Below, piece by piece: positions 12,401 through 63,304 of a stretch of 64,000 nucleotides of DNA. Location of the stretch: positions 7,817,501 through 7,881,500 of the forward strand of contig NC_089727.1 of NCBI RefSeq assembly GCF_035083965.1, written 5' to 3'. The notes under the pieces were generated by a model that did no database searches, was not told the DNA's origin, and was given only the letters and a program-made list of their open reading frames with translations. The translations under genes were made by a program, and so were the position numbers. Numbering within the stretch: position 1 is the stretch's first letter; every line of letters starts with the position of its first letter. Source of the DNA: Branchiostoma lanceolatum. Its lineage: Eukaryota > Chordata > Leptocardii > Amphioxiformes > Branchiostomatidae.

Positions 12401-15400
12401 GACCGATCCTGTCGAACACCATATCAAACGAATAGAAGACCGATAGAACCCCCTGTTCTATTTAGCCCACCTCCGTCAAAAACAGCGTTGGCGGGGCAGA
12501 AATGGCACGTGTAAAGCAGGGTACGTATATCTGGGACAGGTTTTCCACTGTATTGGTTGAATGCATGCTCAGAACAAAAACGAATTTAAAAAGAAAATAG
12601 ATCGGGCACTCAAGGAGAGGAAGCTTGAACCACATGCTGACTTACTACAAAGTACGCTAGCGCAGAGTTTTGTATCTTCACTTACTGGTGTGTGAAACTG
12701 GTTAACTTGAAAGTGAACAGGGAAGTAAAAGGATGCATTTTAATTCTTAGTTACTAAATACCATGCAGCTGTTATGCATCCAGTCAATACAGTGGGAACC
12801 CTGTCACAGATATATGAACCCTGTTTTACACGTGCATCGCCTGCTTCTCAGAAACTGGGCGCTGATGCCCACCGACAAGGGAAAGCTATGCGGCGCATAC
12901 CGCTTTAACATTGACCGAAAACATTACGCTCTCACCGCAACTACACCTACCCCCTCCTTAAACAACTCCACCCGGTGGATACAGCCTTCAACAAAGAAGA
13001 CATAGCATTCTTATTTGGCCCGCTCTGAAAGGGTTTCAGTGCCACAAAAGCTAAACCGAAGTCAGTGGCATTATTTTCAACCTTGTCGCGGCGGCCATGT
13101 TTGGTCCGTCAAACCCTGTTTTTGACGGAGGTGTTCGAAATCGAACAGGGGGCGTGGCTTTGGGATCGGTCTATTGACGACAATAATACTGTATATTTAT
13201 TCATTTTAGTGGGGATTTGATTTCGCTGTAAAAGTGGAAAGGAAATTTTTGTGTTTTTAGAGTAAGTTCTTCAGCACAAAAACACAAGTTGGTGCAAAAA
13301 CTGCACACAAAATAACACAACAAACACTATAAGATATACCTTAAATTAATTTTTTGGGGGGGTAATTTTTATTTCATGCTTGGAATAGACAGAAGATTTT
13401 CACTGTGTTTTAACTTTGCCGCTGAAACAATTCTGTAGCACAAAAGCACATGTTTGTGCAAAAACTGTGAAAAAATAAAGCCACTGCAAACAGTTCATAA
13501 GATTAATCACCAATCCTCTGCAGGTCAATCTGATGACCTGGGCTTCAACAAGGGAGATACCATTTTCCTGTTAGGGAAGGTGGGTTCAGAGTGGTACCGA
13601 GGGAAGTGTGGTAAGAAGGAGGGGATGTTCCCAGCTACTTATGTCAACGTTGTGGAGGACCTTCCCTGGAAAGAACCAGCTCAAGAGAAGGCTGACACAA
13701 TCAGGTAAGGAGAATGTATTGTCCAAATAGCAGTTACTCAAGCAATTGGATATGATTATGCAGTATAACCACCCTTCAGTCAAGTTCAGTGTAACACACC
13801 AGCTTCTGTATCTATATCTGTATAGCCGGTATGACCACCTTTCAATGTAAGACACCAAATCATATCCAGTTGCTTGTCATGAGTAACTGCTTTTTAGCAT
13901 AATCTTATTACCTGGAAGTACCTTCATTGACAAAAATGTATTCTGTATCTGTGTTGCGGGTATAACCGCCCTTTAGTGTAGCACACCAGCTTCTGTATCT
14001 GTATAGCTTTCCAGCTTCTGTATTTGTATACTTAAGCCATTATAACGGTTGCTACCCTTCAGTGTAACACCAGCTTCTGGATTCTGTTTGCTGGTATAAC
14101 TGTCCTTTGGTGTAACACATCAGCTTTGCAGGCATGCAGTGCAGCGTCAGCTGGTTATACATTTAAACCTGGTCGGGTAACCACCTGGCACAGGCAACCA
14201 CCTCCAGTCACAAGCCACATAAAAAAAGTCTGGTCCACTTTTACATTTCATATAGTTAGCTCCACCCTGTCCCTAGCAACCACCTGTCTTCAACAACCAT
14301 TTCTTCAGTCCCTTGAGTGGTTGCTGACTCCAGGTTTGACTGTGTTATACCAAACAATCTGTCACACCAACCTTTGCAAATCTAGCTACAAGCATTGTTT
14401 AAAGCTATCTAGTGATGATGCCCTTACTGTACTTGGTTGCAATAAGTTCCACTCTACAATGGTTCTAGCAGAATACTAATTTTTTAACACATCAATCCTC
14501 AGGTGATAACTCTCGTACTTAAGTCATGACTACAATGTAATTTTTGTGAATGGCATTATCTGTAGACCCCAAAGCTGATACAGAATACATAGAAAAGAAA
14601 TTGATGAATACAGGTGTAGCAGGTCAGAATATACCCCTGGCCTAAATATACCCTGGTATTTTTTGGCCAGGGGCCTATGCTGGCCTGTTACATGTGCACC
14701 TGTAGCTAACCATTGTACTAATTTGTAGGCCTCATACAAACCATGGAAACCCCTGCCACTGTTGTCAGAAAGAATTGATTTGAAGCTACATGTATGTAAC
14801 CATATTGATACAAAACATATCAGTCTGCTGTACCACCAATTTTGGAATGTAGGCTTTTGTTCAAAACGTGACCTATACTTCACTTGTTTTCCAGTGTTTG
14901 AGACATACATTGTACATTGTCATCAAATTTATGTTTTACCTAAAATTGCAATGCTGTATTTCTTCACTAGGGGGCCTCACTGCAAGGCCAGATTTGATTT
15001 TGAAGGGGAGAGTGAAGGTGACCTCTCCTTTGAAGAGGGTGATGTCATCAGTCTTCTGGAGAGGGTCGGAGATGAATGGATGAAGGGAGAGCTGAAAGGG
15101 AAGGCTGGAATCTTCCCTCTGTCCTTTGTAGAGGTGGTGGAGAATCTACCTGTAGACACAGTCACTGCTACACCATCTGGTGATGGTAAGTTTGGGGGTT
15201 AACTTATTGACGGTTATCATGGAAGCTCATCTGTGTTGGTAGTAATTATAGTACAATGCTAAACTTTATTCCAACTAAAAGGTATACACGGATCAAATTT
15301 TCAACGCTCATTGAGAACTAGATTCCTTGAACACAAACGCTTCAGCTCGCAGTCGTCGGAAGGCTCTCAACACAAGTCAGAATACTGGACACTGAGCAGG

Positions 15401-22139: not shown

Positions 22140-24740
22140 TTAACGTAGCTCAGTAATCCCCGAATGTGTCGTTCTCTCATCATAGATAGCTTTCATCATT
22201 GTTTGTGACTGTTTGAAGTAGCTAATTGCTTTCTTCTGATCACCGAGTTCGCTCCAAGATGATCCCAGGCCTTTGAGTGACGCTGCAACGGATGGACGTG
22301 CCGTGTTGTCTCCATAGATAGTTTTCATCATCGTTAATGACTGTTCGTAGTAGCTAATTGCTTTTTTCGGATCGCCGACTTTACCCCAAGATGAACCAAG
22401 GTTGTGAAGTGACAGAGCAATATCTGAATGTGCTGTGTTTTCCCCATAGATAGTTTTCTCTATCGCTAATGACTCTTCGTAATAGATAATTGCTTTTTTC
22501 TGATCGCCGAGTCTACCCCAAAATGTACCAATGTTGTGAAGTGACTGAGCAATGTCCGGATGTGCTGTATTTTCTCCATAGATAGTTTTCTCTATCGTTA
22601 GTACCTCTTCGAAGTAGCCTATTGCCTTCTTTTGATCGCCGAGTTCACTCCAAGATGATCCCAGGGCCTGGAGCGATGCGGCAATGTCCGGATGTGCCGT
22701 GTTGTCTCCATAGATAGTTTTCTCTATCGTTAGTGCCTCTTCAAAGTAGCCTATTGCCTTCTTTTGATCACCGAGTTCACTCCAAGATGATCCCAGGCCG
22801 TGAAGTGACGCAGCAATAGATGGATTCGCCGTGTTGTCTCTATAGATGGTTCTCTTCATCGCTAATGACTCTTTGAAGTAGGTAATCGCTTTTTTCTGAT
22901 CGCCGAGTCTACCCCAAAATGTGCCAATGTTGTGAAGTGACTGAGCAATTTCAGAATGTGCCGTGTTTTCTCCATAGATAGTTTTCTTTATCGTGAGTAA
23001 CTGTTCAAAGCAGCTAATTGCCTTTCTATGATCACCTTGTCTACTCCAGGATAATCCCAGGTTGTGGAGTGTCATAGCAATGGAGGGATGTGCCGTGTTG
23101 TCCCCATAGATAGTTTTCTCCATCGTTAGTGAAAGTTCGTAGTAGCTAATTGCTTTCTTCTGATCGCCGAGTATACTCCAAGATGATCCCAGGTTGTGAA
23201 GTGACCAAGCAATAGCAGGATGTGCCGTGTTGTCTCCATAGATAGTTTTCATAATCGTTTGTGACTGTTTAAAGTAGCTGATTGCTTTCTTTTGATCGCC
23301 AATTTCACTCCAAGATATTCCCAGGCACAGGAGTGACTGAGCAATATCCGGATGTGCCTTGTTATCCCCATAGATAGTTTTCATCATCGTCAGTGACTTT
23401 TCATGGTACTTAGTTGCTTTTTTCTGGTCGCCGAGTTTACTCCAAGATGCTCCTAGATTGTAAAGTGATCGAGCAACATCAGGATGTGTCATATTGTCTC
23501 CATAAATGGCTATGTTCATCGTTAGAGACCGTTCAAAGTAGACAATTGCTTTTTTATGGTCGCCGAGGTAACCCCAAGATGTTCCCAGATTGTGAAGTGA
23601 GTCAGCGATGTCCGGATGTGCCGTGTTGTCTCCATAGATAGCTTTCCTCATCTTTAGTGACTCTTCGTAGTAGCTAATTGCTTTCTTCTGATCGCCAAGG
23701 TCACTCCAAGATGTTCCTAGGTTGTAAAGTGATCGAGCAATATCAGGATGTGCCCTGTTGTCTCCATAAATAGTTTTCTTCATCGTTAGTGACTGTTCAA
23801 AGTAGCTGATTGCACTTTTCCGGTTGCCGAGTTCACTCGAAGATGTTCCTAGATTATGAAGTGACTGAGCAATATACGAATATGCCGTGTTGCCTCCATA
23901 GGTAGTTTTCATCATCGCTATTGTCTGTTCGAAGTAGCTAATTGATCCCACGTTATGAAGTAACAGTGTAATGGCAGGATGTGACGCGTTGTCTCTACAG
24001 AGAGTTTTTATCATCGTCAGTGACTCTTCGTAGTAGCTAATTGCTTTCTTCTGGTTACCGAGTTCATTCCAAGAAGTTCCCAGGTCCTGGAGTAAAAGAG
24101 CAATGGCAGGATTTATCGTATTGTCTCCAAAAAAGATTTTGATCATCGATTGTGACTGTTCAAAGTAGCTAATTGCTTTCTTATGGTCGCCGAGTTTACT
24201 CCAAGATGTTCCAAGGTTGTGAAGAAACTTAGCAATGTCCGGATGTGCCGTATTGTCTCCATAGAGAGTCTTCATCATCGTTAGCGACTGTCCGAAGTAC
24301 CTTATTGCTTTCTTCTGATCACCGAGTTTACTCCAAGATGATCCCAGGTTGTTAAATGACCCAGCAATGTCCGGATGTGCCGTGTTGTCTCCATAAATTG
24401 TTTTCATCATTGTAAGTGACTGTTCATAGTAGCTAATTGCTTTCTTGAAATCGCCGAGTTCACTCCAAGATAATCCCAGATTGTGAAGTAACTGAGTAAT
24501 GCCCGGATGTGCCTTGTTATCTCCATAGATACTTTTCATCATCGTAAGTGACTGTTCGAAGTAGCTGATTGCTTTCTTCTGATCCCAGAGGTCACCCCAA
24601 GCTAACCCAATGCCTTGAAGTGTGTGAGCAATGTGTGGATGTGCCGTGTTGTCTCCATGGAGAGTCTTCAAAATCGTTAGTGACTGTTCCAAGTAACTAA
24701 TTGCTTTCTTCCCATCACTCTGTGATGTCCAGTATTCCCC
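22140..24740 (-). repeat. Tandem array of 132-bp coding repeats (20 TPR units)
   Basis: Each unit encodes a 44-residue TPR with the core W-x-x-L-G-D-Q-K-K-A-I-x-Y-(F/Y)-E-x-S-L-T and the spacer YGDNTAHPDIA. Units 16 and 17 (about 22560-22820) are almost identical in DNA as well as protein. Unit 7 (about 23850-23950) is short by 33 bp. The last unit ends at the stop codon. Confidence 0.9.
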
Positions 24741-27700
24741 CAATTCCCTCAACATTTGCGAACGTTTGATAGTGTCGCTACCAGCATCGTTTAATGCTGC
24801 TTCCAAATGACGTGTGGACGTCGATAACAATAGATTTTTTGCTATTCGTCCCAAACATTCATGAGAAGCATCATAGATGGTCGTTTTGAATAGCCCAGTC
24901 GACTGGACACGCAAACTATCTTTAACCATGGCTGGTATACACTTCTTTAAAGGGATAGCCCTGCAGTAGTATCTAAAAAGAATTTTTGTATCTGGAATAT
25001 AAAATACAGACCTCAGGATGGAGTCAGGCACTTCATGTGTTTCTGATTGATATTTCATTTGGGCAAGTGGGGACAGATTGTCTTTTTGTCCTCCGTTGGC
25101 CATATACGTTCTCAGCCGAAGTTCCACCGAGATGCTGGTTAGCACCTTAAGGTGTGTGGCATTCTCTTCCCCGATCTTTCCCAATTCCTTCAATCTATCT
25201 ATCACATCCCACGCACTGGATAGTGCAACATGACAGCACAAAGCTAGTAGCTCGATTGCTATGCCTGGAAAACGGTAGATGTCTTTCTTGACATTTAGCA
25301 GTTGCCCAGTGGGTTCAAGGTTGTGAAAATGGTCCCTGTCGTCATACAAGATTTGAATAGCAGACAGATGGGACTTGAAATGGGAGAGGAGGTCATCTGT
25401 GATGGTTTTCGACAGGCTTTCCCTATATTCGTCCACCAGTGCTTCTTCTCCTGCTAGAAAAACAAACCGCCTGAGGATGTCTGACAGGTGGTACCCTTCT
25501 GAAAGAGAAACGTCTAGCCGCTGAAACTTTGCCATTTCAGCAGGGGTCTGAATGAGGCTAACCCGAGGTTTGGTCTTAGTCTTGTCTCTTCCAAATGGAG
25601 TCTTACTTGCCCATGGCATGAAGCCGTCGAAGGCAAATCCACGCGGCGTGACGGAATCAAAGAACCAGTCCTTCTCTAGATTTTCTGACTGAAAATCGTT
25701 CAGGGACGGGATGGCCATGGCTGGGAGGATGGTCTCTCCGAGGTTGATGACTTTCAGGTGTAGGTAGTGTGTAAGGTTGAGGAAGTACCGCCGTGTGTCG
25801 TCATTGTCCTTCCCGTCTTCAATCAGAATGGCGAACTCCAGGTCAGAGTAGGGTGTGACCAGCTCTGTTGCCTGTGAGCCTAACCCGATGAAAGCGTACT
25901 TACAGGGAGGAGGGCCAAGTGCGACGATACATTCATCAACAAGATCCTGGATAAAATTTTGTCTGTCTTGGGCGACGGCCTTGAATAAAGCCTTGACGGC
26001 TTCAGCTCGCTCGACCTCGACTGTTTTCATAGATGGGTCGTCCTCGTCATATTGGTACGGATTGTGTCGCTGATCAATGGCTTCTAGTTGTGACTTTGTA
26101 CGGGCGCGCATGTCGTCTAACCGCTTCTTATGACGTATGGCTCGACCAGATGGAATGGACTTGCCGTCCACATTTGCTGTGTATCGGAGAAACCATTGCT
26201 CTATCTCGTACAGTATTTTAGTCACACACTGTTTATTTTTGTCTGTTCTGGCCATGGCTGCGTTGTACAGAGCTGCTGCCTGTGTGAAGTTCCTACCTTC
26301 TTTTGTTGCTTTGCCTCGCTGGACGTAGACGTCACCAAGTCTGCACAGACAGTCGGTCTCTTTAAGTCGGTCAGGTATGTTAGGATCTACAGGTATGCAG
26401 AAAATGAAAATGATGACATGTTTTGTTATCTAGATAGCCTGGATTGTGTCTGACTTATTACTCGACCCCCCCCTCCCCAATAGGAACTACCGGTGGACAG
26501 TGTGTTGTTGTTTACATCAGGCGTGTCAGGAGGCTCTATTTAGTGTAAATTGCGATGACTTCAGGAACTCAACACCATAAAGAAATCATTGTGCAAATAT
26601 GCTTTAGAAACAGGTTGCACGTGTCATTCCCATGAAGGTTTTGTTATGGACAATGTTTTCAATTTTGGAGCCAAAAAATGTTACATAATGGGCCCTTGTT
26701 GGTGCGATGTAACATCCGTCATTATAGAGGAAACGTACCGTGGATGAGTTTCAGAGCGGCTGCAAACTCATGTTCTGCTGAGTCCAGGTTCCCATCACCC
26801 AATGCCCGGTCCCCCGTTGTTAGGCACTTCTCGTACGATCTGAAAAGCGAGGTGTTTAATGTTCGGCTGATGTAGTTAACTCAAGACTAAACATGAGTTT
26901 CACGACCTCATACGTCCATGAAATATCAAGAGCTTTTGTAAATTTCTTTTGTTTTATCTTGTCTCATTGATGATGCAATCAAGGCTGAAACTAGTATTTA
27001 TGCTAATTTATTTCAATGATGGTCTTCCCTACCAAAATTATATACATTGCATGTGTGAACGTTCCTTTTGTACAGTAATCCCCCTTGAAACAATTTTAAC
27101 AAAAACGCCTTTGCAGTTCCAGAGCTAGCTGCTAGGGGACCCAAACCTACAGCACTTCTTCCTTACATAAGAAAAACAAGGACATGGCATGTCCTGGACA
27201 AAACATACAAAAACCGGAAGCTTTGCTGCAGTACCAAGGTAACACACAGAGGGGGGGGGGGGCAAAATTGAGACCTATCCAGTTCAGGGGGTAACTACAC
27301 AATTACATTGTAAAGGTTCACCAAGTGAAGAGTGCTAGGTGTACATATGCAGCATTTAAGACGGTACATCGAAGGAAGTAAAGGAGCCAGAGGAAATAAG
27401 TGCACATACCTGTAGTCTGGAGCGTGTTTGGGTGTCAGACTTAAAATGTAGTCACACGGTGACCTGCGAGATGACCAGATGGTTTTGGTATCTAACGTTA
27501 AACAACATTCATATGTGCCAAAGTGCATTTTAAAACGTCTTTGTGGAATAAAAAAACAAACTTTGCATATCTGTCGTAATGAAAGAAACCCTTTTTATTA
27601 TCGTACAATAATTGAAAACCAACCAATTGGCTGACAATTGTCTCGACTTGCAGAAGAATGTCAAGACGTGTTTTGTTTATGTGTCAGTGGCCTTCACCTT

Positions 27701-31473: not shown

Positions 31474-33958
31474 TTATTTGGACTTAGGAACAGGTTTTGC
31501 AATCTTTGAATTCTGGTAGTCTTCATGAACATATGCATGGTCGTGTGGAAGGTGTTTGAAATGCAAATCCCGGACGAAATACTTCATCACTACATCCTTT
31601 AACCCCTTGTCAATCACCATAACACAGAAGGTTATCATGCATGTATACTGGCTAAAGGCATTCTTCACGTGGTTTATGATGTGAGCCTTACACAAAGCCT
31701 CGTCCTTACAGTGTATGTCTATGTGATACACCCTGCCTCGGGGAGTCATGTAACTCCCCCCGAAGCTAAGACTCTTGGCGGCCGGTTTGGTCGAGTCGAC
31801 AAGGACGTAGCAGCCCGCTTTTACAAACTTCTGCATCTTGGATTCAGAAAGTTTGTGTGGATCCCAGTCAACAAAGACGAAGCCTTCAGACAGGACGGCA
31901 GCTGAGAAGGCGGGCGGCAGCAGGCGGTGGATGTCGGTAGGCCGGTAGGGGACGAGGGTGGGGAGGGAGATCTGGGCGGCAGTCAGTCGGTCCTTCACGG
32001 GGGCTGCGTCCCAGCAAAAGTACATGACATTCTAGAGAGACGAAGTAGGCATTGCGGGCGTCAACTGATGGAATGTGATTTCAGAAGAGGCTATTTGTAT
32101 TTCTATCCCCTAGTCTCAGCATTTATACCTCGGATGGGCTTTGACAGTCGTGCTACAAGGCACATTTCCAAGCTGATGCCGTGTCGGGTAGTTGACAGAC
32201 TGTTTTTGTTTTCTGTACTCAAATGTGAACCCTATATCGATGCTTTCAGGTTAAGGTTACAACTTGGACCCTACGTTTGTTTTGGAGACATTTTTGCATT
32301 AAAGCGTTCGATCTGAAAATATTATGAAAATTTCATGAATACATCCCCTTGAAAATTGATTTTGTTTTACCTCGATAACCCAATTAAGAAGCTGTGTCTA
32401 GATGTGTATCATATTTGGTAGGTGTCAGCAAAACAAGTTCGATGATGGACCTCCTGGTTGTTTTAAGTTGTCCTACAACTTTGGATTTCACATATATATC
32501 GTGTTATGGACATGCTGTGTTCATATGTTTTGTTGGTAGATAGTCATTATCAAATGCTAATTAGCTTAGTTGATTAATTAGGAAACTTTCTAAGTACGCT
32601 GCGTTCCATGGTAGGAATCCCAAACTTGTGACATGTGAAACCGATAACTGAATATCAATAGATAGGAATCATATGCCCATGAAGACTTATTTTGCGTATT
32701 CAAGGAGAAAATGCAGTTCGGTATAATTTCATATTGGTAAATGACGAAAATCTAATACTTTCGGCATTTGGAAGTGAAGGTGAACATCATAACGCAAACA
32801 TTATGCAAAGCAGGGCCTCGTTTATATAATTGATAAAGAAATACTACGATGGCCTTCGTTGCTAAAAGAAGACTTCATACTTGGAATAATTGGTGTTATT
32901 TGGTTAGAGAAGATGACCTGCTGATTATGCAAATTAATCAATGAGAAGCATTTAAAATACACCAGTCGTTATAATTTGGCGAAGCAAGCCTTGGGCGAAG
33001 GTATGAGGTCGTGGAACTATAGTTGTGACATGTGTCACTGACGTTGAGGTTATGCTACAATACATATTAGATCGATATGCAACTTAGGGCATACGTCGCC
33101 GAGGTCAAGTATATTTCTTGTTCGCGTTTGCACTCAAGCCCCAAAGAAACCCCGCTGCCGCTGACTGACGCATAACAGCACAGGTTAGTGTAAATAACAG
33201 GCCACGACATACTTACAATCACAGATTTCATCCTTATGGTAAAGTCTCTGTATTGGCGTTGCAGGTCCCGTCGCTCTGTTCCCCTCATTCCATGTAGTAC
33301 TTTTGGTGTCCGCCCTGAATTCTCCATAACTTTAGCCAAGGTGTAAAGCCACGTGGCCCACATAAATGTTTTGGAGAGTCTTTTGCCTTGCAAATTTTTA
33401 GCAATGCGCTCGGTTTTGCCAAACACGGTTCCCCCACCATCCTGCGAACACGACACCCTGAGGTAGACCTAGGAGGAACAAAATAGTCGTATAGAATTTT
33501 CCGTTCGAAATCACAGCTTGCGTCTGGTGATTTATACCTTACAAAATGATTTCCGTCATGTTCGTTTCTTGGTTGACAGGCCTTATGATAAAATCGGTTA
33601 GTAACGAGTTTCAGTCTGACTGTAAGCTTGGCAAATTTCACGCCATTTTCCAGGTTGTTCTTTCATCACCAGTTCATACAGACCCCCCCCCCGCATACAC
33701 ACACTTTCTTGTTGACCTTCCGAATACACTTTTTCATCTCTCCATTCCACAAAATCTTTACTGTGCACCCCTTACCACTTCTCCATCTACCTCCACAAGG
33801 GCAAACACCGTGTCGGGATCGTCCACATAGCCGTGAAACTTGGCCGGAAGGTAGTCGAAACCGTCCCGAAATGTGTCCGGAGACGCCACGTTCATGACGA
33901 CCTGGTAGTCATCGTGAGTTGCGTCTCTCACAGTCATCCGGGATCGCAGCTCTTCGTC
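31474..33958 (-). CDS. NAT16: NAT16-like GNAT N-acetyltransferase (histidine acetyltransferase family), partial model
   Basis: Exons in transcript order: 33958-33776 (61 codons), 33468-33217 (84 codons) and 32031-31474 (185 codons plus stop), all phase 0 with good splice sites. Exon A has MTVRDATHDDYQVVM and DGFDYLPAKFH, matching the GNAT start of the NAT16/fish histidine N-acetyltransferase family, which uses acetyl-CoA. Exon B (VYLRVSCSQDGGG, VFGKTERIAKNL) falls where the acetyl-CoA loop R/Q-x-x-G-x-G/A lies; here the usual RGRG is changed to DGGG. The long last exon (DWDPHKLSESKMQKFV, YHIDIHCKD) matches the family's C-terminal half. The beta-strand segment of about 18 residues normally between A and B was not found at 33469-33775. 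An AATAAA (minus) lies at 31299-31304. The true start may be the MTVRDA methionine or an exon further upstream. Confidence 0.65.
32404..32545. repeat. Dispersed repeat (CAAGAAGGTT family), copy 2
   Basis: TAGGTGTCAGCAAAACAAGT and then GATGATGGACCTCCT parallel the central part of 29520-29760. It lies in the intron before the last NAT16-like exon. Confidence 0.45.
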
Positions 33959-58570: not shown

Positions 58571-61561
58571 ATGGCGACCGCTTCTTTCACGGAGAAAGTC
58601 AGTGACGAATTCATCCAGTGTACGATCTGTTGCTACAACTTTAAGAACCCAAAGGTTCTTCCTTGCTTGCACACCTTCTGTGCACACTGCCTGCGGGAAT
58701 GGGTCCAGAAGAACGATGGCGACACATTTCCGTGTCCTATCTGTCGCGAGCCAGTTTCCCTGCCCCCAAATGGCGTCGAAGGTCTAAAGGACAACTTCTT
58801 CCTCGCTAACCTGGTGAAAGCCGTGTCCGAGGATAACAAGGTTCGCCACGGTCAAGATGGTCTCCTCTGTACCACATGTGAAGAGGGGAAGCCAGCTACA
58901 TCCAGGTGTTCGGAGTGTGCTGAGTTTCTGTGTGAGAGTTGTGAGTCTGCGCATCGTCTTCAGAGAGCTACCAAGGGTCACACCCTCTTCACGTTCGAGG
59001 AACTGAAGACAGGCAAATACGATGGCGTCTTCAGGACCAGGAAAGCTCCACCATGCTCCAAACACTCAGGAGAAATCTTGAAGCTCTACTGTAGGACCTG
59101 TGAGACGCCAATATGCAACGAATGCGCCTTGTTTGAACACAGGGACTCACAGCACGACTACACACGCATAGAAGAGGTGGCCACCGAGAAGAGAAACACA
59201 ATCTTAGATCTCACACCACAATCCCAGGCCCGAATGCAATTCATCCAAACTGAAGATGTTCAGAATCGCTTGAAGGAACAGCTTCAGATACATACAGAGG
59301 GGGCTCGTCAGAACGTCCACAAAACCGTGCAAACACTGATTGCACTAGTAAAGGAAGAGGGCGAACGGCTCCTTTCCTGTATTGATTCTGAGGAAACGAT
59401 GAGGAAGAAACAGATCGAGGCAGAGATAGAGGGAGCGCAGATCAGTCTAGCAAGCGCCAAGAGCACATGTGAGTTTGCAGAGACTCTAGCTCGGGAGGGA
59501 GGCGACTACGAAGTTGTATCTTTCTCACAAGATCTGACAACGAGACTGAACGACTTGAACAAACAACCTGCGGACACAGTGAACTTTGAACTGGCAAACA
59601 TCACCATTGATTACTCGGTTATGAGGCGCAAGTTAAGACAAAACACCCCGCCGCTCACCCAATACATCCTGACAAAGTCAACGGAGAGAGAACTAGCTTC
59701 TATTCTGAAACGTGAGTCGCAGAGTTGGACAAGCTCGAAGACAGGCCTTGGTCCCAAACAACAAACGGGGCGAGGAAATGTTGCACGTGGAAAGGCACCT
59801 GGTAAGTAGTAAGACACCTTTATACGAGCGTAATCATGTAATACAGGATATCATTAGTCTTGTTCCTTATTCTGAGACGTCATCTAGTAGTCATGTATGT
59901 ACCATTACCGACATAAAAATGGAAGTATTGATTTTGGTCTGCCTGTCTGTCTGTGTTTCCGGGCACCCCTTGTATTTGTTAGAAGTCGTCCAAAAATGAT
60001 AACTCAAAAAATTAAAAAGGAACAACAGATTTTTCCATGATCTTCCACATAGAGGTAGCTTAGACAAAGATGTATAGAATCAAACGCAAATTATGACTTA
60101 ATTTGCAAAATCAATGAGGAAATTAAACAATTCCAGTGGTTTCTATGATCGGACTTTAATAATGTTAGATATGTAATTTATGACAGCTGCAACATTAGTA
60201 GCTACCAAATACGCAAATGTGGGCCTAATTTGCATACTTTATGCAGAAGTGCCACAATTCATCGAAATAATAGTAAATAATGTGGCAAATGATAGTTATT
60301 TCATACATGTGAGTTAGTTAAAGTATGCTTAACTATGAATATATCATGTAAAGAATTTAGCTATTTGCATAATTAGAATTTCATGGGGGAATTAATATGA
60401 GGTCTCCAGACCCGTTCTCAGATAAGAATTTAGGTAACCGTAAACAACTGTATATAACTTTTTCTTTAAATTTGCGAGGCATTGCAAGTGCACCAAAGAA
60501 TGCTGAGGTTGTGCCAACATGTATTCAACTAACTAAATTCGATTTTTTTTCCAATTAGTTTTGATGTAGTAATTTCAATGAAAGATTTTCACTAGCATCT
60601 GTAAACCTTCTTTAGTGACATTATCCCGAATCACTACATTGCATTATACTCTTCCAAATCAAATATCAGTAAAGATATCATCACCGACAACGTTCGTAAA
60701 CAATTACTCTGTCTGGAAAGCTTCCATGGGACTACGCTTTTGCGTTTTTGAATCTTTGAACTTAGACACTTGAGGGCCCAGAGTAATTATGTAATTCTTA
60801 CAACTCTTACAGCCTCAGTCTACCCAGGTCCAACCCAGACATACGCTGCAAGTTCTTCCTATGTCCCGCGAGGAACGCCAACACCCTACTATCCCTACCA
60901 TCATCCTACTCCGAACTACTATAGTAGTGATTCGTCACCTGCAGCTGAAGTATCAAGGAATGGACAACCCGTGACCCATTCAGAAGGAAGACCAAGGTCT
61001 GGTGGCACATACAAACTGGCTGATATGCCTGATGAGGAGGAGGAAGATGTCATCAACAACAGCAGGAATGGGACCATAGTTACAGTAGAACAGCCTGTAG
61101 AGCCAGACATATTATCTTACATCATCAAAGTCCACAGTTCAAAAATCATTGCCATAGCCGAGAGACATAGGGTCACTTTTAGCCTCCATGAAGAAAAGAC
61201 AGTGGTGTATTTCAAAGGGATGAAGAAGAATGCAGAAGATGCACTTGAAGATTTCATCACTTTGTACCAGGGTCTGTTCAGCAAACTCAAGTCTATTCCT
61301 TTTGACACAAATATGCATTACGTCAAATCAGATGTCTGTCAATATGCTGTAGAATGTGTGCAGGAATCGCACCCATCTGTGTTCATTAAAAACACAGCTG
61401 GAAACGTAGTATTCATCGGCGATGAGTCCGAGGTTCGCTCTGCAAGAGCACAAATCTGTTCCATATTGAAGATTTCTGAGTCAAGGAGAAGAAAATCCCA
61501 CACAGGCAGTATACCAACGAAAGGAAACAACAAATGTTCACGATATTCCGCATATAGGTAG
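58571..61561 (+). CDS. TRIM-type RING/B-box protein with KH-like C-terminus
   Basis: Two coding exons, 58571-59801 and 60813-61561, join in phase 1 to 659 residues; an unspliced read would stop after GKAPGK. The RING is complete: C17, C20, C32, H34, C37, C40, C55, C58 (C3HC4), the E3 ubiquitin-ligase signature. Two B-boxes follow at about 97-135 (CTTCEEGKPATSRC) and 159-196 (CSKHSGEILKLYCRTC), then a helical coiled-coil-like region at about 225-330. A low-complexity Tyr/Pro linker (YYPYHHPTPNYY) and an acidic run (DEEEEDV) lead to residues about 506-632. These resemble the paired KH-like modules of DTX3L/PARP14-type proteins (SYIIKVHSSKIIAIAERHRV, then VFIKNTAGNVVFIG). Usual TRIM C-termini (NHL, SPRY, filamin) are absent. 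AATAAA lies at 61982-61987. Confidence 0.85.
60030..60415. repeat. Dispersed repeat in the TRIM intron
   Basis: Its left part (AGGTAGCTTAGACAAAGATG, then AATCAAACGCAAA) matches the end of the TRIM coding exon and 3'UTR at about 61520-61610. Its right end (TTTGCATAATTA, TTCATGGGGGAATTAATATG) matches 17015-17080 and 56870-57000. Confidence 0.65.
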
Positions 61562-62543
61562 CTTATAATAGACAAAGACGTATACAATGAAATGCAAACC
61601 ACACAAATTAGGAACCAGAATTAGGAAGAATGCGAAAAGAGACTGGACAAGGCTCAGATTTATTCACTCCATTATAAATGGAATAATTGCATTAGCCATT
61701 ATCGCATATTCCTGATATTTGCATGATATAATGCCAACTGGAAAAACGGTTGAACATGTCAAAGTCACTTACTCGTATTTATCGTGTGCAAATGTCATTC
61801 AAATGTAAACGTGTATGGATAGTTTCTATGGTAAGACAACACAATAGGATTGGTTGTAAGTTGTCCTTTGTGTTTTGTAAAACCCATAGTGACTCCATTG
61901 TCATTTGTTGTGATAGGATACAGAAGAATAGAATTGCCATTTTTTCACTAAGTTTGCCATCCTTTGCACTCAACATGTGTAAATAAATGATATGCTTATG
62001 AATTCAATATGTTTCATTTTGTATAGCATGGGAGTGAGTGAATTTGAAACAAAGTGTATGTGTTTCCTTCAAGTGCCATCCTGAAACAAGAAGCAAATCT
62101 TGTGTGAAGACTAAAAAACAAAGTTTTACTTTAATTTCTGAAACGTATTTGTTGGTTAACCTCCTTGGTGAGTGTTATACTAGAAATATTTTCTTCATTT
62201 AAGAAAAACAAGAATTGAACTCTTAATATAAGAATTAACACACAAAAACTTTGCAGAGGCTTTCTTGATTTTTCTAGAATTCTTTCACACAAGAAAATCT
62301 TTCCACAAGAGAAAACAAGAAAAATCATTTTTGGTAGTGTTTGCCAAGATGTGGATTTGATCACAATTGTACGTACAATATACAATGTACTTCATCAGAT
62401 GTAGCTATCAAATCAAATATAAAACGCTTCTAAAACTATTGTTTGAATACAGCTATTGTACCGATACCACAGCAAGTCCCTTAGTATATAGCCTTCTAAG
62501 AAGGGTCTACAAGTCGGGCTTTTAATTCTGAAGGCATATCACT

Positions 62544-62643: not shown

Positions 62644-63063
62644 TCAAGCAATGAAGTCGTTGATGGCCCGCCCTATCTCCTGGGGTGAGTCTTCTTGCAG
62701 GAAGTGCAGTCCCTTGACTGTCACGGTCTTCACGTTCGGTAGTGCCTCTGCCTCGCCCTTCAGCGCGCCGCTGAACCAACCCGGATCGGCGTGGACGTAC
62801 AGCTTAGGGATCCTGGTTTCCTCCAGCCACTTCCCGTACGCCCGCACTATCCGGATCACGTCCTCAGGACCGTCGCCCATGACAGGGATCTCTCGAGGAA
62901 ACGTCAGCGTGGGACGGCGGGACTCGCCGGGCTCCAGGTAGGGCGCGCGGTAGGCGTTCATCTCGTCTTCCGTCAGCTTGCGGAGGATGGAAGTGGGTAT
63001 GAGACGCTCCACAAAGAAATTCTTCTTCAGGACCATCTCTTCTCCGCCGGGACTTCTCAAAGC
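62644..63063 (-). CDS. Renilla-luciferase-like / haloalkane dehalogenase, last exon
   Basis: A 140-codon phase-0 exon opens after a CACCAG acceptor at 63064-63066 and ends with TGA at 62644-62646. It aligns by eye with the C-terminal part of Renilla luciferase and bacterial haloalkane dehalogenases (alpha/beta hydrolases): EEMVLKKNFFVERLIPTSIL, RRPTLTFPREIP, HADPGWFSGAL and KGLHFLQEDSPQEIG. The His in GLHF fits the catalytic-triad histidine; the nucleophile Asp and the Glu would be in earlier exons beyond the window. Family enzymes cleave carbon-halogen bonds; the sea-pansy relative oxidises coelenterazine to give light. Which activity this one has cannot be told. G+C-rich codon use sets it apart from its surroundings but is ordinary for exons here. 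Confidence 0.85.
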   Translation of the reverse strand, partial: ALRSPGGEEMVLKKNFFVERLIPTSILRKLTEDEMNAYRAPYLEPGESRRPTLTFPREIPVMGDGPEDVIRIVRAYGKWLEETRIPKLYVHADPGWFSGALKGEAEALPNVKTVTVKGLHFLQEDSPQEIGRAINDFIA

Positions 63064-63108
63064 CTGGTGACGTAGAAAAAAACAAGATACCGTATTTTCT
63101 TGCACCCC

Positions 63109-63304
63109 AATAGACCCCTCTTGCCAGTTACGGTGGCCATTTTGAATTTCTTGGGGTCAGCTTTAGGGTCATGCAACAAAACGAGGCTTCAGTTGAGTGT
63201 TCCTTACTATAAGCCAGGTGTGTATTACAATATAGGTGAACTATGCCATCTTTGGTGACCCAGGGAAATTCAAAATGGCCACCGTCACTGGCAAGATGTC
63301 TATT
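63109..63304. mobile_element. MITE-like element with about 45-bp inverted ends
   Basis: AATAGACCCCTCTTGCCAGT at the left end pairs with the complement of the right end, and both arms continue with CGGTGGCCATTTTGAATTTC. The 100-bp centre has no frame. It lies within the intron upstream of the luciferase-like last exon. Confidence 0.75.

Follow-up and report, generated by a model that had tools for sequence, protein, structure and literature searches.

A stretch of 64,000 nucleotides from Branchiostoma lanceolatum (contig NC_089727.1, positions 7,817,501 to 7,881,500; analysed at its whole length and called the window below) was found to carry, at positions 58571 to 61561 of the plus strand, a predicted two-exon gene of the TRIM type with an unusual C-terminal tail. 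Taken as a whole, the gene would encode a TRIM ubiquitin ligase whose tail is a tandem KH-like recognition unit resembling the paired domains of DTX3L and serving in protein docking, a reading that we hold with moderate confidence. The DTX3L-type KH-like character of the tail as such is supported, though not proven, by profile matches and a structure model. Exon 1 (58571..59801, +), which covers residues 1-410 and the first base of codon 411, encodes a RING and two B-boxes, with a putative coiled coil after them. It is followed by a predicted phase-1 intron (59802..60812, +; GTAAGT...TTACAG), recognised from splice-site and frame reading, and by exon 2 (60813..61561, +), which encodes a linker, two KH-like modules, a basic C-terminus and the stop codon at 61559-61561.

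The product of exon 1 matched the Pfam families zf-B_box (1.7e-14) and zf-RING_UBOX (4.9e-9). As in TRIM (RING, B-box, coiled-coil; RBCC) proteins, whose RING precedes one or two B-boxes, a C3HC4 RING finger (residues 17-58; 58619..58744, +) was followed by B-box 1 (residues 100-137; 58868..58981, +) and B-box 2 (residues 162-195; 59054..59155, +). All 24 of the 24 zinc ligands were present, eight in each of the three domains: C17, C20, C32, H34, C37, C40, C55 and C58 in the RING, C100, C103, C113, C116, C121, C124, H128 and H137 in B-box 1, and C162, H165, C174, C177, C182, C185, H190 and H195 in B-box 2. The last RING cysteine is directly followed by R59, which we take to be the linchpin-arginine position of active RINGs. 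Since the RING ligands are intact and R59 is in place, the RING would be expected to recruit a charged E2. The preliminary description of this DNA had placed the RING, both B-boxes and a coiled coil in a single exon. The zinc-binding part of that description was borne out, while the coiled coil, expected at residues 211-380 (59201..59710, +), was left unconfirmed, as its heptad periodicity was equalled by 125 of 300 shuffles in a simple heptad test. Together with a probable coiled coil, the two B-boxes would make the ligase multivalent. The closest solved chains by sequence in the PDB were TRIM3, TRIM2, TIF1-beta and TRIM56. With solved chains only as the reference set, TRIM3 and TRIM2 ranked first, and this bears on a comparison with subfamily C of Marin, which takes in TRIM56 and class VII with TRIM45 (PMC3503706); class VII includes TRIM2 and TRIM3 (PMC9732051).

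The tail begins with a linker rich in Pro, Tyr, Ser and Thr with an acidic patch (residues 411-505; 60813..61096, +), which is probably disordered. Module 1 (residues 507-570; 61100..61291, +; net charge +1) and module 2 (residues 571-632; 61292..61477, +; net charge -2), the latter KH-like or of another alpha/beta type, are followed by a basic C-terminus (residues 633-659; 61478..61558, +; net charge +7). Pfam was queried with three spans containing both modules (131, 248 and 269 amino acids) and with the single modules (69 and 70 amino acids). On all four spans that contain module 1, KH_DUF2096_C and KH_DTX3L were the top two families. KH_DUF2096_C matched the module 1 region with an E value of 1.8e-4, and on each of the three longer spans KH_DTX3L aligned from profile position 7 or 8 to position 125 of 128, so that both modules are covered, module 2 by the second half of the profile. 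None of ten controls made from the 131-residue tail (nine shuffles and one reversal) gave a KH match, and a Pfam match of any kind was seen in three of them (best 0.0088). Two weaker non-KH matches of the tail itself, CobW_C_DAAF9 (0.021) and TRA-1_regulated (0.038, with module 2 alone), were set aside as chance. An AlphaFold model of the module pair showed two alpha/beta modules of KH-like form whose nearest solved folds were KH domains; those of MEX-3C lay closest to module 1, and the neighbours of module 2 were a mixed set. The tail gave no match to the PDB by sequence at E 10. Among viral contigs eight pattern matches were obtained, none of which was confirmed as a relative of the tail, and no relative was found in phages.

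The preliminary description had also suggested that the tail is linked to RNA, and this suggestion was weakened. At the position of the GXXG loop, when the tail is aligned by eye to the type I KH pattern, module 1 reads K516-V-H-S519 (61127..61138, +). No GXXG was found in the tail (in the whole protein, G..G occurs only at residues 68 and 94), and canonical reading of single-stranded RNA by the tail is therefore unlikely on this evidence. GXXG is likewise missing from the KH-like domains found in DTX3L, PARP9 and PARP14, and these domains mediate protein-protein contacts (PMC11080071); a KH-like domain of DTX3L also drives oligomerisation (PMC10955461; also PMC11251020 and PMC13224862). Because the tail shares the missing GXXG with these protein-contacting domains, protein docking appears likelier by analogy than canonical RNA binding. 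The main rival to docking is RNA guidance of the MEX-3C kind, in which the KH pair and the basic C-terminus would bind RNA and the RING would ubiquitylate RNA-associated proteins. It draws on the MEX-3C KH domains as the nearest folds of the two-module model, MEX-3C itself being an E3 ligase with KH domains and a RING (PMC6194269), on the net charges of +7 at the C-terminus and +1 in module 1, and on the nucleic-acid binding proposed for some KH domains of PARP14 (PMC13224862, PMC10450202). Against it stand the KVHS in place of GXXG and the negative net charge of module 2; moreover, the basic C-terminus lies partly inside a repeat shared with the intron, and likeness of fold to MEX-3C is no proof of function. 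We consider RNA guidance improbable, while giving it more weight than either of the two alternatives that follow.

Several results weigh against a KH-like docking tail. The curated Pfam cut-off was reached by no KH-like match of the tail on any span (KH_DTX3L, 20.9 against 27.4 bits; KH_DUF2096_C, 21.6 against 24.6 bits), and module 2 alone matched no KH family in Pfam. The best model of the tail had a predicted local distance difference test (pLDDT) value of 60, which is low confidence, and its Foldseek superpositions were poor overall. When modelled alone, module 1 took another, non-KH topology (pLDDT about 60), and no KH-titled chain was found among the 50 listed structural matches of this single-module model. 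The profile search and the modelling thus supported the proposed DTX3L/PARP14-type KH character through the top two Pfam families, the clean controls and the pair model, and qualified it through the sub-threshold scores, the low pLDDT and the single-module model; the two alpha/beta modules proposed for the end of the protein likewise stand on one low-confidence model together with the Pfam profiles. The same results would fit a pair of alpha/beta domains unrelated to KH whose profile likeness arose by chance, as the weak Foldseek matches, the non-KH model of module 1 and the mixed neighbours of module 2 might suggest. We regard such a tail as distinctly unlikely, for two different KH-like families, one of them spanning both modules, led on all four spans with module 1, none of the controls gave a KH match, and the pair model was KH-like.

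That exon 2 is joined in phase to exon 1, as had been proposed earlier, was in agreement with frame, phase and splice sites, and the splice remains a predicted one. From the ATG at 58571 the frame is open to 59801, and the junction 59801/60813 keeps it exactly, yielding a protein of 659 amino acids before the stop. The donor is CACCTG followed by GTAAGT; at the acceptor, CTCTTACAG ends at 60812 and is followed by CC. A poly(A)-like signal, AATAAA, lies 3' of the stop (61982..61987, +). The frame of exon 2 is open for 269 codons, a length equalled in one of 40 simulated windows (first-order Markov, with the dinucleotide statistics of the real window), so that its length alone is moderate evidence of coding. 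The codon score of exon 2, trained on a neighbouring TPR reading frame, was -0.060 bits per codon and the highest of its three frames, the non-coding mean being -0.249 (standard deviation 0.076). Some non-coding samples exceeded it, however (maximum -0.004), and on exon 1 the true frame (0.009) scored below another frame (0.027); because of both points the codon score is weak evidence for exon 2. A tblastn search of the window revealed no further copy of either exon, its matches all being weak (E no better than 0.63).

Retention of the intron would let the frame of exon 1 add Gly-Lys before it stops; with a stop so soon past the donor, a tail-less form is possible. An extension of this, to which we give little credence, would make exon 1 alone a tail-less TRIM ending in Gly-Lys and exon 2 part of another transcript or a relic: the in-frame stop almost directly past the donor, ATTAAA signals at 60011 and 60122, the lack of a clear coding mark in the codon score and the view that TRIMs without a further domain are products of domain loss (PMC3503706) would agree with it, but the donor and acceptor are good, their phases match, and a long open frame runs from the acceptor with the KH-like matches about 95 residues downstream.

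For the two-exon gene with a docking tail, the most likely origin would be exon shuffling, in which a TRIM exon was joined to a KH-like exon over the phase-1 intron. By analogy with the contacts among DTX3L, PARP9 and PARP14, the KH-like pair on its flexible linker would use KH-to-KH contacts to bind a substrate or another partner protein, and other KH-bearing immune proteins would be its likeliest partners. A further proposal, which we regard as a long shot, is that a chordate lineage independently made a DTX3L-like device, in which a TRIM ligase with a KH-like pair docks on PARP14-type KH arrays, so that a single protein links ADP-ribosylation immunity with TRIM-driven multimerisation and ubiquitylation. 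The phrase 'KH domain' was absent from the main text of Marin's TRIM survey, which covers Branchiostoma floridae (PMC3503706), and from a survey of zebrafish and pufferfish TRIMs. No TRIM-KH protein was described among the literature matches listed, whose scope left out most subscription papers. We therefore read the gene as a known ligase chassis combined with a known type of module, the pairing of TRIM and KH-like parts being new as far as was found in the literature. TRIM tails largely determine the targets of the ligase, and with its usual tail replaced this gene product may choose targets unusually. If the assignment is true, the KH-like tail would add a mode of recognition to SPRY, NHL, MATH and the other tails, and a RING ligase would have gained the KH-like docking modules of the interferon-induced PARP14/PARP9/DTX3L complex along a second route. 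The gene would then also offer a compact way of testing whether pairs of KH-like domains without GXXG serve generally in immunity as modules for protein docking.

A direct repeat of about 80 bp links the intron to the end of the gene. The intron copy (60016..60090, +) is 78% identical to a second copy (61520..61598, +) that takes in the final 13 codons together with the stop codon and the beginning of the 3' untranslated region (blastn about 1e-10; none of 200 shuffles was as good). Beyond the edges of the repeat the similarity ends, 168 of 200 shuffles being as good upstream and 95 of 200 downstream. The idea that the intron contains a degenerate copy of the tail exon was considered and rejected, as the similarity is confined to the repeat; a small duplication or a short dispersed element is the likelier explanation. 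The last residues of the protein may, to judge from the sequence, derive from this short repeat, and they are therefore not counted in the KH region. Just downstream of the TRIM gene, on the minus strand (62647-63156), the C-terminal part of a hydrolase of the haloalkane dehalogenase/Renilla-luciferase type was found. Its best PDB matches were AncHLD-RLuc (6.1e-64) and the haloalkane dehalogenase 4brz (3.1e-49); Pfam gave no match at 0.001, and the segment is probably the last exon of a hydrolase gene. Elsewhere in the window were observed an open frame 1429 codons long (22143-26429, minus) that matches a DUF294-type nucleotidyltransferase (1.8e-6) and carries an extended TPR array, a match to Hisat_C, the C-terminal domain of histidine N-acetyltransferase (31477-32031, minus; 5.1e-30), and an exon with an SH3 domain (14729-15199, plus; 2.6e-14).

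Among known systems, TRIM2, TRIM3 and TRIM56 share the RING and two B-boxes with the present protein and are among its top PDB sequence matches. The tails of TRIM2 and TRIM3 are of the filamin-NHL type, whereas the Pfam tables showed no NHL or filamin match for exon 2, which has the KH-like tail in their place. MEX-3C is likewise an E3 ligase, with two KH domains that supply the nearest solved fold to module 1 in the pair model; it is not known to carry B-boxes. In contrast to the order predicted here, its KH domains are N-terminal and RNA-binding and its RING is C-terminal (PMC6194269). DTX3L, a Deltex E3 ligase and partner of PARP9 and PARP14 in the interferon response, combines a RING with paired KH-like domains without GXXG (PMC11080071), and its profile covers both modules of the present tail, below the cut-off. 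It consists, however, of an RRM and five KH-like domains followed by a RING-DTC unit (PMC13224862, PMC11080071), whereas the present protein is RING-first with two B-boxes and has no C-terminal RING-DTC, the Pfam tables containing neither an RRM nor a Deltex C-terminal domain (DTC). PARP14 and PARP9 carry GXXG-less KH-like modules at their C-terminal sites (PMC11080071), but no ART, macro or WWE domain appeared in the Pfam tables of the present protein.

In the ZAP antiviral complex the KH protein KHNYN cooperates with TRIM25, and the KH region of KHNYN is important for assembly of the complex (PMC11685948); KHNYN KH1-KH2 also appeared in the Foldseek list of the tail (rank 40, E 0.27). There, KH and TRIM parts are on separate proteins, and since the two already cooperate, a fusion of TRIM and KH would make sense. 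Gain of a new tail by a subfamily C TRIM in one lineage has a parallel in Branchiostoma floridae, where Branchiostoma-only TRIMs of this subfamily have two MATH domains (PMC3503706), as opposed to the KH-like tail described here. PARP14-like oyster proteins that combine KH, RRM, macro and ART domains, and fusions of TRIM to TRADD-N (PMC8195603), indicate that such immune modules are recombined freely in marine animals.
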